Of a DNA stretch of 40,118 nucleotides, positions 6,240 through 40,118 are shown piece after piece. The stretch's first letter is position 1. Every line of letters starts with the position of its first letter. The position numbers and the translations under genes are program-made. The notes beneath the pieces were generated by a model. It worked only from the letters and a program-made list of their open reading frames with translations. It was not told where the DNA came from and ran no database searches. The stretch lies in assembly GCA_014859085.1 (NCBI GenBank), contig JACUUY010000010.1:1-40118 (forward strand), in the 5' to 3' direction. This stretch comes from Caldifarciminota bacterium. Its GTDB lineage: Bacteria > Hydrothermota > Tepidihabitantia > SM23-42.

Positions 6240-6267
6240 ATTATATTATGTTCGTCGGCCGTGTCAA
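6240..6267 (-). promoter_or_regulatory. Sigma-70 promoter for the fused MFS/spermidine-synthase-like gene
   Basis: On the minus strand, TTGACA (6267-6262) and TATAAT (6245-6240) are separated by 16 bp. The predicted start is near 6233, giving a leader of about 70 bases. The rest of the 257-bp divergent space holds a TATAAT at 6364-6369 facing the plus-strand gene but no convincing -35 box for it. Confidence 0.75.
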
Positions 6268-35154: not shown

Positions 35155-37184
35155 ATGAAGAGACTGATAGGTATCATGATGGCCGGTGTTCTGCTCTTTG
35201 GCGCCGATTACGGTAGAATAACCGGCCGGGTTGTTGACGCTGAGACCGGCGCGCCCCTGGCCGGCGCCGACGTGATCGTCGAAGGTACGGACCTCGGGGC
35301 CGCGACCGACCAGAACGGCGACTATGTCGTGCTCTACGTGCCGGCCGGCACGTACCGGGTGACGTTTTCTTACATCAGCTATGACCCCCTTTCCTTTGCC
35401 AGTGTCGTGGTCAATGCTGAGCTGACGACGGTCCTTAACTTCCGGCTGCCGCCCACGGTGATCGAGGTGAGGGGCGGTCACTGCTGTTGCCGAACGCGAG
35501 GCCATAGTGCGCGATGCGGTCCACACCAGGCGTGCCGTTACTTCAGCGGAAATGGAGCGGCTGCCCGTGACCACGATCAACCAGGTGATCGCGCTGCAGG
35601 CCGGCGTCGTGGCGAGCAAGCACGGGACGCACCTGCGTGGCGGTCGCGACGGCGAGGTGTCATATTTTGTCGACGGCATCGTGACCAAGGAACCGAATTT
35701 CAACGTACAATCCTCGATCATCAACCCTTCAGCCGTCGAGGAGGTATCGGTCATCAGCGGCGGGTTCGATGCGGAATACGGGGACGCGCTTTCGGGTGTG
35801 GTGAACATCGTGACCCGTGAAGGCGGTCAGAAGATCTCCGGCAGCCTCAATTACCTCACGGACGAAATGTTCGCCGGCTGGCAGGACCAGGTGAACTACG
35901 GGTACAATCAATACGAATTCACGCTGGGCGGGCCATTGCCGGCCGCGCCCAGAATGCGCTATTTCGTGTCCGGCGAGTTGATGATGACCGACGCGCAGCA
36001 TGTCGAAGGTTTGTACAAGCTGCCCTCGGCCAGGATCGATTACCGTGCCCAGACGCGTTTTTCCTACCACCTGCCCAATACCAAGGGGAAATTGACCTTC
36101 ACCGGGTTCACTGAACGGCGTCAGTGGGTGATCTGGTCGAACATAACCGGCACTGGTCAGTACGACCTGAAGTACTTTGACCAGAAACCGATGAACCGGA
36201 TCAAGACGTGGATGCTCTCTTCAACCTTCAATTACATGCTGACACCGCAGACCCTGGCCTCGCTCAAAGCCGGCATGACCCATTATGACCGGTTCTTCGG
36301 GAACCGCGATTACGATTACGAGACGGCGAACGGCCGGCAGTGGTACGAGGATTATCGCTGCTATGCCGAGCATCTCTTCCCGCTCCTTTTTGAGGCTTCC
36401 CGCGAGGGCTATGTAGTGACCAATGGCGATACGGCAACGGTGCGCACCATTCTGGTCGACAGTCTCATGGCGTATCATGATGAATACTTTAACCGCGATG
36501 TCGAGGCATTGCGGCACAATCCCTACGGCGTTGAGGGGTTGTTCTATACCTATGGTGATTACCGGAACTGGACGCTCTCGAACAGTAATAACATGCAGGT
36601 CCGTTTCGATGTCAGCCATGCCGTGGGCAAGATCCACGAGTTCAAGACCGGCGTCGACGTGACGCATTATGAAATGCAGTACTTCCAGAACAACCTGCCC
36701 TGGGTTGCGAATCCATTCTGGGATTACTATGACCGCAGTCCATGGAAGCTCTCGGCATATATCCAGGACAAGATGGATTTCGAGGGCTTGGTGGCGCGCC
36801 TCGGCCTGCGGTTCGATTACTTCAATGCCAATACGACGACCTACCAGAACCCCGAGAATTATCTGAACGATGAACTGGTATCTTCGGAGCCGTCTTATCA
36901 GATCTCGCCGCGGTTCGGATTCTCGCTGCCGGTCACGGACCGGATGAAGCTGCGCTTCAACTACGGACATTACTTCCAGCTCCCGGCATTGGCCAACATG
37001 TACTCTTCGACCGACACCCAAGTCGTGAGGGTGCTCATCAGCCGCGGCAACGCGGTCCTCGGGAACGTGCTGATCGAACCGGAGAAGACCGTGCTCTATG
37101 AACTGGGTATCGAGAACCAGCTTACGACCGATGTCGTTTTCGGTTTCACCGCCTACTTCAAAGATATCTATTCTAAGACATTAT
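35155..37184 (+). pseudogene. TonB-dependent receptor gene, frameshifted and truncated by AT-rich DNA
   Basis: ATG 35155 follows GGAGGTG. The first frame encodes a signal peptide (MKRLIGIMMAGVLLFG) and a carboxypeptidase-regulatory domain (GRITGRVVDAETGAPLAGADVIV). At GGGG 35471-35474 the reading must move by one base: removing one G joins TVIEVRA to VTAVAEREAIVRDAVHTRRAVTS, the expected linker before the plug. The plug (VIALQAGVV ... LRGGRDGEVSYFVDGI ... NIVTREGG) and barrel follow, up to YFKDIYSKT at about 37181. There a typical receptor would continue for several hundred residues, but the sequence turns AT-rich and codes for an unrelated tail. So there is a 1-base insertion (or sequencing error) plus a large 3' truncation. 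Confidence 0.72.
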
Positions 37185-37273
37185 TCATCTGTGTAATCCG
37201 CCCTTATCTGTGTAATCGAAACTTGTTACAGAATACCCAAAATTTTCACAAAGTCAAGCATCTTCCAGCCTGA
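35507..37273 (+). CDS. TonB-dependent receptor plug and partial barrel, fragment
   Basis: The longest open piece of the damaged receptor, 588 residues from a GTG at 35507 with no ribosome site of its own. It contains the plug (residues ~15-105) and about 13-16 barrel strands, including LKLRFNYGHYFQLPAL-like late-barrel sequence (MKLRFNYGHYFQLPALANMY) and PEKTVLYELGIENQL. The last ~30 residues (LFICVIRPYLCNRNLLQNTQNFHKVKHLPA) are translation of the AT-rich DNA after the junction, not receptor. It has no signal peptide, so this piece alone could not reach the outer membrane. Confidence 0.6.
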   Translation: MRDAVHTRRAVTSAEMERLPVTTINQVIALQAGVVASKHGTHLRGGRDGEVSYFVDGIVTKEPNFNVQSSIINPSAVEEVSVISGGFDAEYGDALSGVVNIVTREGGQKISGSLNYLTDEMFAGWQDQVNYGYNQYEFTLGGPLPAAPRMRYFVSGELMMTDAQHVEGLYKLPSARIDYRAQTRFSYHLPNTKGKLTFTGFTERRQWVIWSNITGTGQYDLKYFDQKPMNRIKTWMLSSTFNYMLTPQTLASLKAGMTHYDRFFGNRDYDYETANGRQWYEDYRCYAEHLFPLLFEASREGYVVTNGDTATVRTILVDSLMAYHDEYFNRDVEALRHNPYGVEGLFYTYGDYRNWTLSNSNNMQVRFDVSHAVGKIHEFKTGVDVTHYEMQYFQNNLPWVANPFWDYYDRSPWKLSAYIQDKMDFEGLVARLGLRFDYFNANTTTYQNPENYLNDELVSSEPSYQISPRFGFSLPVTDRMKLRFNYGHYFQLPALANMYSSTDTQVVRVLISRGNAVLGNVLIEPEKTVLYELGIENQLTTDVVFGFTAYFKDIYSKTLFICVIRPYLCNRNLLQNTQNFHKVKHLPA

Positions 37274-37484
37274 CCGCTCCCCACTTTTCCTGCCCCTTGA
37301 TGATTTGACAAAAACAAAGTGTCCAAATTTTTTGTGCCCTTAAAATGGCATAAACTCCGTTGGGAAACTGACTTTCTATCAATAAATCTTCAGCAGGTGG
37401 ATTAAAGTACTTTTCTAACGGGGTATACCTGTGTGTGCCAGAACCGACTGATTGACAATAATTTAAAAAAGCATATAATAAAAT
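37181..37484 (+). other. Junction to AT-rich island, non-coding
   Basis: The base composition drops sharply at about 37181. The stretch holds a tandem pair of ATCTGTGTAATC (37187-37198 and 37206-37217), a motif of common intergenic repeats, then AT-rich DNA without an ORF, ending in the methyltransferase promoter. No integrase, transposase or clear inverted ends are visible on this side. Confidence 0.6.
37452..37479 (+). promoter_or_regulatory. Sigma-70 promoter of the methyltransferase operon, leaderless
   Basis: TTGACA (37452-37457), 16-bp spacer, TATAAT (37474-37479), then AAAAT and ATG 37485. Transcription would begin at the A of ATG, with no ribosome site. Confidence 0.78.
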
Positions 37485-38693
37485 ATGGAAGAATTAGTTG
37501 AAGTGAAACGGAATAAAATGTACCGTGAAAATTTAATTGGCTATGTTCCAGTTGCAAATAATAACTGGGATTTTGAAGAAATTGGGATTAAACACACTCA
37601 GTACTTGACTCACTTTTTTCATCACTGGGCAGCAAAGTTTATTCCTCAAATACCACAAAATATAATTCACGAATATGGCAAATCAGGGGATATAGTCCTA
37701 GACCCATTTGTGGGTTGTGGGACAACCCTTGTTGAAGGGAAATTGCTAAATTGTCATAGTTACGGTATAGACATAAACCCCCTTGCAATAAAAATCTGCC
37801 AGGCCAAACTTAATACAATTGATAATGAATTACTTGGGAAATTTATAAGCTGGTTAGACTATTACAATAAAGTTTATCAGTCGTCGTTAGAAAAAGGTCA
37901 ATTAAAATTATTTGAAGAAGAGAAACTCCCCGAGAATCCCAGTTTATTTGAAGAAAGTGACAAATGGTTCAGAGATGATGTGGCGAAATGTATAAAGTTG
38001 GTATTTCAAAAAATTATAGAATACGATTCAAATACAAAAAATTTTATAGAGGTCGGGTTATCAGATCTTCTGAAAGGAATGAGTAATTCTCGGTCTGATC
38101 GAACTATGCCCTGTCTTCCTAAACAGGCAAAATATTATGATAAAAAGCACGACCGCTGGATAGATAATGACACAAGGGAAATAAATGTTTTTCAAAGGCT
38201 ATCCTCCCAACTAAAACGGATGGCTGTAGCGTTACAACAATTTCACAGACTAACTAAAGATGAAATAATTTGCCAACCTATTCTGGCTGATGCTAAAAAT
38301 TTGACAAAATATATACAAAAGGCAAATATAGTAGTAACTTCTCCACCGTATTGGAGTGCTCAAAACTACCAAAAACTTCATTTTTTATCATTTAAAGTAT
38401 TGGGATTAAATGAACCAGGACAAGCAGAAATAGGTAGAAATGCTTCTGACTATCTTAATGATATGGATATTGTTATTGAACAACTGTCAGAAATCCTTGA
38501 CGGGATTTTTGCTATTGTAATTGGTGAATCTAAAGAAAATATACATGAAGAAGTTAAAGGATTGATTTTGAGCCATGGAATGAGAGAGGAAGAAACTATA
38601 AAAAGGAATATCCTTAACCATACTTTTTTTGCTAAAGCTGTCCAACAGGAATTTATATATATTTTCAGCAATACCTCCAAAAAGAGAGTATGA
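37485..38693 (+). CDS. Site-specific DNA methyltransferase (N4-cytosine or N6-adenine, alpha-type motif order)
   Basis: 402 residues from ATG 37485. The SAM-binding motif DPFVGCGTTLVEG (residues 73-85, motif I) comes first, preceded by HHWAAKFIPQIPQNII (motif X-like). The catalytic TSPPYW (285-290, motif IV) comes near the C-terminus. The X-I-TRD-IV order is the alpha arrangement, and SPPY is common in N4-cytosine methylases and also found in N6-adenine ones. The middle part (~120-270) should hold target recognition. Codon use is AT-rich, unlike every gene to the left, which points to recent transfer. The stop overlaps the next start as ATGA. In restriction-modification or similar defence systems such an enzyme marks host DNA against the partner nuclease. 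Confidence 0.85.
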   Translation: MEELVEVKRNKMYRENLIGYVPVANNNWDFEEIGIKHTQYLTHFFHHWAAKFIPQIPQNIIHEYGKSGDIVLDPFVGCGTTLVEGKLLNCHSYGIDINPLAIKICQAKLNTIDNELLGKFISWLDYYNKVYQSSLEKGQLKLFEEEKLPENPSLFEESDKWFRDDVAKCIKLVFQKIIEYDSNTKNFIEVGLSDLLKGMSNSRSDRTMPCLPKQAKYYDKKHDRWIDNDTREINVFQRLSSQLKRMAVALQQFHRLTKDEIICQPILADAKNLTKYIQKANIVVTSPPYWSAQNYQKLHFLSFKVLGLNEPGQAEIGRNASDYLNDMDIVIEQLSEILDGIFAIVIGESKENIHEEVKGLILSHGMREEETIKRNILNHTFFAKAVQQEFIYIFSNTSKKRV

Positions 38694-40118
38694 GAAAAAT
38701 GGTATTATTTGACTTAAGGCGTGACAAAATTCCAATAAAAGAGGCAATCAATGAAGCATCGAAATTTATCGATATTGTATCGTTTCAATTTACTTCAGAA
38801 GAAATTATACGGCTTTTGATAGATAAATCTAACAAAGGCATTAAAGTCCGGGTTGTCACTCTTCCAGAAGATAGTTACGGTGATATAGCAAAAAGGCAGA
38901 CAATAAGTAATTTGTATAAAGAACTTTCTAATAGAGGAATTGAACTCAATCTATGCTTATGGGAAGTTGGTGTTCCAGAATTAACAGAAACTTCCATGAG
39001 TGGTGAGCAAACCGAAGGAGGAGGTAATAAATGGTATTCGCTTCACGGCAAATTTGTTGTTACTGACAAGAAAGCACTAGCGGTATCGACAAATTTTACT
39101 GATGATAATCAATTAGAGGTATATCTCCGCTATGAAGATCCAAAAATCATTGAATCTTTTCGTTCAAAATTTAATCAAATAAACGAATTGTTTTGCTCCG
39201 GACAAAAACCATTGCCTGGTTCTTTATATGACCAATTACCCGCACCGATTCAAAAAGAATTAGGATCCTTATATAAAATTTCCAAAAGAATAAATATCAA
39301 GGAGTATCCACCTGAACTTGCACCTGACACCGAGATAAAAAGAGGAATGTTTCTATCTCCGTTTGAAGGCAAAGCAAGAACTTTCTTTGATAGAATAATA
39401 AATCAGGCAGAAAAATTCATTTGTCTTTCCACAGAAAGATTGTTCGATGATGAAGTCGTCAAGGTTTTGCTAAACAAGGCTTATACAACAGATATTCCAA
39501 TTAAAATCATAACCGGACACCCGAGGGGCGTAAGGCAAAATCCTGTAAAAGCAGAAAAGATGGTTGCTGATTTAATGGCTGCTGGCGTTGATTTTTCTAT
39601 AATTAACGATGTCCATGCTAAATTTTGGCTAACAGATAAATGGATATGCGTTGGTTCCGCAAATCTTGGTAAAATGAATCTTGGGTTTGCTAAGACTGGC
39701 AACTATTGGAGAGCAAATACAGAGACATTATGGTTTGATAATGATAATAAGATAATTAACACCGCGAAGGAGAAATATGAAGAAATATTTGGGAGTTCCA
39801 AAAGCGGTATTATAGCCCTCTCCGATGTCGGGACTAAAGAAGGACGAGCTAAAGATTTATTTGCCTTATTTGGTTTCAAAAGCAAAAAAGAGGCAAAAAT
39901 TCTGATAGCAAGAATAGAAACGCAGTTTACAGTGGAAAACAGGCAAAATATAATTAGAATCGCCAAGCTATCGGCAAGGCTGGCGGAAATAGAAAACAAC
40001 ACCTTTATTACCGAAGAACATGTGATAATGGCAAACATCCTTTTCTATCTAAGGGAAAGAAAACACGATATCAATGAAATAAAAGAAAAAATGGCAAAGA
40101 TAATTGAGAAACAAAAGA
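38690..40118 (+). CDS. Phospholipase D-superfamily protein with two HKD motifs, probable nuclease, 3' end beyond window
   Basis: ATG 38690 overlaps the methyltransferase stop (ATGA) and the frame stays open to the last base: 476 residues are visible. Two complete HxKx4D motifs are seen: LHGKFVVTD (H119, K121, D126) and VHAKFWLTD (H309, K311, D316), each followed by the usual small-residue segment (STNFTDDN; GSANLGKMN). Two HKD motifs in one chain can make one active site, as in PLD-family enzymes; PLD-type nucleases are known in restriction systems (BfiI, NgoFVII) and in DISARM (DrmC). After the second domain a helical region (~390-476; AKLSARLAEIENNTFITEEHVIMANILFYLRER) resembles an AAA-lid-like bundle. 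Strong coupling to the methyltransferase suggests it is the nuclease of the pair; DNA as substrate is inference. Confidence 0.8.
   Translation, partial: MRKMVLFDLRRDKIPIKEAINEASKFIDIVSFQFTSEEIIRLLIDKSNKGIKVRVVTLPEDSYGDIAKRQTISNLYKELSNRGIELNLCLWEVGVPELTETSMSGEQTEGGGNKWYSLHGKFVVTDKKALAVSTNFTDDNQLEVYLRYEDPKIIESFRSKFNQINELFCSGQKPLPGSLYDQLPAPIQKELGSLYKISKRINIKEYPPELAPDTEIKRGMFLSPFEGKARTFFDRIINQAEKFICLSTERLFDDEVVKVLLNKAYTTDIPIKIITGHPRGVRQNPVKAEKMVADLMAAGVDFSIINDVHAKFWLTDKWICVGSANLGKMNLGFAKTGNYWRANTETLWFDNDNKIINTAKEKYEEIFGSSKSGIIALSDVGTKEGRAKDLFALFGFKSKKEAKILIARIETQFTVENRQNIIRIAKLSARLAEIENNTFITEEHVIMANILFYLRERKHDINEIKEKMAKIIEKQK

Follow-up and report, generated by a model that had tools for sequence, protein, structure and literature searches.

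BfiI, a restriction enzyme with a phospholipase D (PLD) nuclease domain, has a single metal-independent active site assembled from the HxK residues of two subunits, and it has been reported to swivel this site to cut the second strand (PMC4081073). SauUSI, which is modification-dependent and ATP-dependent, likewise forms its catalytic site from the HxK motifs of two protomers (PMC7913695). In the family of BfiI/BmrI and NgoFVII, the PLD nuclease has a DNA methyltransferase partner and combines its catalytic HxK with an extra C-terminal region presumed to serve in DNA recognition (PMC4081073), an arrangement that recurs at the locus described here.

The window, by which we mean the whole stretch of DNA analysed, is 40,118 bp long and makes up all of contig C173, one of 252 in a draft genome that is 97% complete. 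An initial annotation made from its sequence had pointed to a methyltransferase gene and a PLD gene near its end, and had suggested a restriction or defence island. Our analysis indicates that the pair is most likely a self-contained, horizontally acquired, two-gene restriction-modification (R-M) cassette with a Type II-like organization, in which a protein with two HKD repeats takes the place of the endonuclease.

A single AT-rich insertion in a receptor gene

Upstream of the AT-rich DNA, the window carries a large regulator and the 5' part of a TonB-dependent receptor gene (35155..37171, forward strand), recognized by the Pfam families TonB_dep_Rec_b-barrel and Plug and by homology to relatives in the genus, in which the gene is uninterrupted, as it is in the genome's own paralogue on contig C83. 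Between 37.0 and 37.5 kb the GC content falls from about 0.54 to about 0.35, as the initial annotation had noticed in placing an abrupt shift inside the receptor barrel at about 37181, and we locate the junction at 37171/37172, with homology to the genus relatives stopping at 37169-37171. Third-position GC is 0.76 in the receptor versus 0.27-0.30 in the two cassette genes.

The insert occupies 37172..40118 of the window, and the contig ends within the PLD gene. The last 55 bp are shared exactly with one end of contig C139 (locus L003; 10,374 bp), and a search of the genome found no second match to them anywhere. Read from this overlap, C139 supplies the final 44 residues of the PLD protein (520 amino acids in total), followed by gene fragments and then by the missing 3' part of the receptor gene (L003:9443-8668), which the initial annotation had advised looking for beyond position 40118. 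The insert thus runs on from L003:10319 down to 9445, and homology to the receptor restarts at L003 9446-9444, at adjacent nucleotides of the empty site. Since C139 carries the end of the PLD gene, the gene fragments and the receptor 3' part in succession, the AT-rich DNA forms a single 3,822-bp insertion, with 36.5% GC between flanks of 56.5% and 60.2%.

A draft of 252 contigs, with a contig break inside the insert and a sharp difference in composition, invites the suspicion of an assembly or binning artefact, and a contig misjoin was indeed what the initial annotation named as fatal to its reading. However, the receptor is broken at one place only and picks up again on C139 with the next nucleotide of the empty site, and its two parts lie on contigs that share, inside the insert, exactly 55 bp unmatched elsewhere in the genome, so that the insertion is real. 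We therefore rejected misassembly, and an artefact of either kind is extremely improbable.

In an alignment with three relatives, the receptor gene has an extra G at about 35474-35476, which shifts the frame near its start. Either the gene became a pseudogene, earlier or later than the insert arrived, or the base is a sequencing error; barring such an error, the insert may have landed in a gene that was already dead.

A methyltransferase gene with a consensus promoter

The first cassette gene (37485..38693, forward strand) encodes a methyltransferase of 402 amino acids that matches Pfam PF01555 (N6_N4_Mtase, E=7e-18) and the PADLOC profile MTase_II (E=1.6e-35). Motif I (VLDPFVGCGTT) precedes motif IV (TSPPYW) by a long stretch, in the alpha order that had initially been recognized, and as in Type II R-M systems the enzyme is of the N4/N6 family with complete motifs. 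TSPPYW is the usual form of motif IV in N4-cytosine enzymes, and on this basis the product is probably N4-methylcytosine (m4C).

Just 5' of the methyltransferase start lies a perfect sigma-70 consensus promoter, TTGACA-N16-TATAAT (37452..37479, forward strand), of which, by Markov simulation, about 0.003 exact copies would be expected across the two strands of the insert; the cassette therefore carries its own promoter. Because 5 bp separate the end of the -10 box from ATG 37485, this start may be leaderless, or translation may begin at ATG 37518, giving a protein of 391 amino acids that is compatible with the promoter position and with the shorter N-terminus of the relative in locus L039.

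Such promoters recur in the window: nine exact copies of TTGACA-N16-18-TATAAT lie in the 40 kb (forward strand at 1695, 14546, 18241, 26021, 28690 and 37452; reverse strand at 6267, 14433 and 17949), versus none across 60 Markov-simulated windows. Several stand ahead of visible gene starts, and sigma-70 promoters in this genome seem to be unusually perfect.

A PLD protein with two HKD repeats in one chain

The second gene (38690..40118, forward strand, with the remainder at L003:10319-10186) overlaps the end of the methyltransferase gene, including its stop codon, by 4 bp (ATGA), in agreement with the initial annotation, and 476 of its 520 residues are encoded in the window. PF13091 matches two stretches of the putative restriction nuclease (E=3.2e-27), and both HxK(x)4D motifs, HGKFVVTD and HAKFWLTD, are complete, which bears out the two-HKD architecture initially assigned to it. 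In an alignment of the five family members, a W[RK]ANTET stretch is conserved after the second HKD motif and about 140 more residues follow.

Of the helical, lid-like tail that had been proposed, the helical character stands, as the region is predicted to be mostly helical; the resemblance to an AAA-lid or histone fold is not significant (best E about 0.8, from Foldseek on a poor model). Weak and mutually different winged-helix matches (MCM_C, E=0.004; a DUF4423-like winged helix, E=0.08) hint at a DNA-binding C-terminal end. Folding, also suggested at the outset, gave AlphaFold models of the relative in locus L038 that were too poor to use (mean pLDDT 49 for the PLD protein and 54 for its C-terminal region); Foldseek searches with them agree with a PLD fold, but models of this quality do not demonstrate an intramolecular active site or a DNA-binding tail.

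Similarity to every named restriction family is only weak, and no sequence in the PDB matches the PLD protein better than E=0.006. Its profile matches lean towards nucleases (NucT, E=0.006; Nuc, E=0.009; and also DrmC).

Comparison with BfiI, NgoFVII and SauUSI

The window protein shares with the BfiI/NgoFVII enzymes a PLD nuclease domain with catalytic HxK (PF13091, two motifs). Whereas those enzymes have one PLD domain and one HxK per chain and build their site from two subunits, here two repeats lie in one polypeptide. The RE_NgoFVII profile (PF09565) matched neither the window protein at E<=0.001 nor the L038 and L040 proteins at E<=0.01; the tail shows no sign of a B3-like domain, and no sequence relation to BfiI is detectable. 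Because it fails both the single-HxK and the profile tests, the protein is not a formal member of this family; by analogy, it probably works like one. A locus of the BfiI-like layout does occur in another genome of the phylum (L056:1768-5587), in which two methyltransferases precede an NgoFVII-like single-PLD protein, and this protein is matched by PF09565.

With SauUSI the window protein has in common the PLD nuclease domain and, as predicted, a catalytic site from two HxK motifs. SauUSI is a dimer that adds a helicase-like ATPase and a TRD (PMC7913695), whereas in the insert no ATPase or helicase gene was recognized and a methyltransferase is present.

A rare family that keeps a methyltransferase neighbour

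The PLD family is rare, and we found five members: that of the window and four relatives, in loci L038, L039, L040 and L071. A search of 147 genomes of the phylum gave one distant relative, a genome-wide contig scan yielded L038 and L039, and 400 and 396 genomes of the phylum and class of L039, respectively, contained one further relative; the 35 genomes of the phylum of L038 held none besides L038 itself. Identity is 67% for the L038 PLD protein; that of L039 is 45% identical to L038 over a truncated N-terminus, and those of L040 and L071 are 32% and 30% identical to L038. The HxK(x)4D motifs are complete in every full-length member, save that the first one in L071 reads HxK(x)4E.

In all five loci a DNA methyltransferase gene adjoins the PLD gene on the same strand and within 50 bp, the adjacency of methyltransferase and nuclease genes seen in Type II R-M systems. 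The methyltransferase itself is of two classes. In three of the five loci (the window, L038 and L039) it is an alpha enzyme with TSPPYW, encoded upstream of the PLD gene in L038 and L039 and there 72% and 47% identical, respectively, to that of the window. The other two have a beta-order enzyme with DPPF, whose gene follows the PLD gene in L040 but precedes it in L071; the two enzymes show 57% identity and have only a motif-I stretch in common with the alpha type. An XRE-type regulator, whose matches include a weak one to R-M control proteins, lies upstream in L039, and in L071 the pair stands alone between metabolic genes.

Relatives of the alpha methyltransferase within the phylum adjoin type II endonucleases, namely TdeIII (L059, E=3e-61), MvaI/BcnI (L060 and L065) and BsaWI (L064 and L057), and in L056 one of them belongs to the row described above, with a second methyltransferase and the NgoFVII-like PLD protein. 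The alpha methyltransferase thus belongs to an R-M lineage, with the same adjoining arrangement as in Type II systems with alpha N4/N6 methyltransferases, except that a two-HKD PLD protein stands where those systems have endonucleases of the TdeIII, MvaI/BcnI and BsaWI families. Together with the linkage in all five PLD loci, this supports the restriction half of the initial proposal. The host genome has a second relative of the alpha type near a contig end (L069:4054-5274, on contig C197, E=1.3e-21), and its N-terminus resembles that of the methyltransferase adjoining the TdeIII endonuclease in L059; its partner gene would be located past the contig end.

The two-HKD architecture is also common in phospholipases and synthases, which are among the Foldseek matches of the poor model, and the PLD protein might accordingly act on lipids, or be some other non-restriction PLD enzyme that neighbours an orphan methyltransferase by chance. 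Against this, a methyltransferase adjoins in five of five loci and comes in two differently built forms, and the profile matches favour nucleases (NucT, Nuc and DrmC). The initial annotation would have given way had the best relatives been lipid enzymes lacking methylase neighbours; the full-length relatives found are methylase-linked, and we rejected a lipid-acting role, for which the neighbourhoods offer no support, and judge this whole explanation highly improbable.

A pair rather than a defence island

Among named families, the PLD protein matches DrmC (E=8e-12 in PADLOC and 6e-10 in NCBIfam) and DpdK best, with weak similarity across one PLD repeat. On these grounds the pair could be a piece of a larger multi-gene defence system of the DISARM, BREX or Dpd kind, or a minimal relative of one, the PLD protein then being an accessory nuclease of the DrmC/DpdK type. 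The scores, however, are far below the curated cut-offs (39 bits against 133 for DrmC, and 24 against 100 for DpdK), and DrmC and DpdK are short proteins of one repeat, unlike the window protein.

Nor does the neighbourhood resemble such a system. Reading of the translations recognized no helicase, DUF1998, DrmA/B, Dpd or other defence gene in the insert or C139, so that no DISARM or Dpd core gene is recognized near the window pair, and C139 continues for 9.4 kb with the end of the receptor gene and what read as ordinary cellular genes. The insert itself contains only two intact genes and gene debris, and the L071 pair has metabolic genes on either side. The further defence genes anticipated past position 40118 did not appear, and the defence-island interpretation is not supported; membership of DISARM or Dpd was likewise rejected, and descent from any larger multi-gene system is very unlikely. 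A two-gene R-M system remains the reading that we favour.

Gene debris and the route of entry

Beyond the PLD gene, C139 carries an antisense radical-SAM remnant, then an antisense hypD fragment, then the receptor 3' part. The remnant is a 63-codon open frame (L003 9964-10155) in which both gene ends are recognizable. In the relatives examined, where the gene adjoins hypD, about 0.8 kb separates these ends; that middle is missing from the remnant, which thus has an internal deletion of about 0.8 kb. The hypD fragment (L003 9444-9890) is C-terminal, covering positions 205-350 of the 351 in the Pfam HypD model (E=1e-59), and the right end of the insert falls within it. Intact hypD and radical-SAM genes of the host lie on contig C100, and the fragment shares 69% identity with hypD genes from other genera in the same family (G010, G011 and G016), versus 63% with the host's own.

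A search of the region against Rfam gave no match. At the left end, no gene is identifiable in the first 300 bp of the insert. The word ATCTGTGTAATC occurs here twice, 19 bp apart (37187-37217), and is absent from the rest of the window.

No transposase or integrase was recognized in the window or C139, any target-site duplication is 0-3 bp at most, and the longest inverted match between the insert ends is 6 bp; carriage by a transposon or insertion sequence was rejected on these three counts (with a duplication of no more than 2-3 bp). Searches of plasmids, phages and IMG/VR viral contigs with the PLD protein, the PLD alignment and the methyltransferase alignment returned no homologues, so that a phage- or plasmid-borne origin is not supported. 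From these features we infer that the cassette was acquired horizontally, as a 3.8-kb fragment that would have come from another genus of the same family and entered by illegitimate recombination rather than as transposon cargo. In the simplest history, the donor piece would have been a two-gene cassette next to a decayed hypD/radical-SAM locus.

Surrounded by a radical-SAM remnant, a hypD fragment and a broken receptor, the pair might be R-M by descent and yet no longer functional, mere passenger DNA on a decaying insert. Both of its frames are nevertheless intact, the catalytic motifs are complete and a consensus promoter stands ahead of them, and we consider loss of function unlikely.

Discussion

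In a working R-M cassette, the upstream gene would supply a sequence-specific DNA methyltransferase, probably forming m4C, that marks host DNA, and the overlapping downstream gene a restriction nuclease that cuts unmethylated DNA. We consider it most likely that the methyltransferase modifies DNA at a specific site, leaving DNA without this mark to be cut by the PLD protein. By analogy with BfiI and SauUSI, the two HKD repeats of one polypeptide would come together in a single active-site cleft, in the manner of two BfiI subunits, and cleavage would proceed through a covalent phosphohistidine intermediate and need no metal ion, the nuclease being probably metal-independent. The C-terminal helical, possibly winged-helix, module would provide DNA recognition.

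A broader proposal is about as likely as not: that the PLD proteins make up a family of restriction endonucleases not previously described, each a metal-independent pseudo-dimer in a single chain with a helical or winged-helix tail for target recognition, and that this family has been combined in evolution with two differently built methyltransferase classes (alpha TSPPYW and beta DPPF) and is thinly spread among distant bacterial groups. In the open-access papers searched, we came across no account of a restriction enzyme that has two HKD motifs in one chain and a methyltransferase partner, and the novelty of the family is accordingly provisional.

That the family works with methyltransferases of two classes suggests a system whose conserved core is the nuclease. 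Further, since fragments of hypD and a radical-SAM gene resembling those of other genera remain attached to it, the insert can be read as a legible record of how an R-M system spreads without a mobile element. If our interpretation is correct, a natural single-chain two-HKD enzyme would make it possible to test directly how a single PLD cleft manages to cut the two strands of a DNA duplex.
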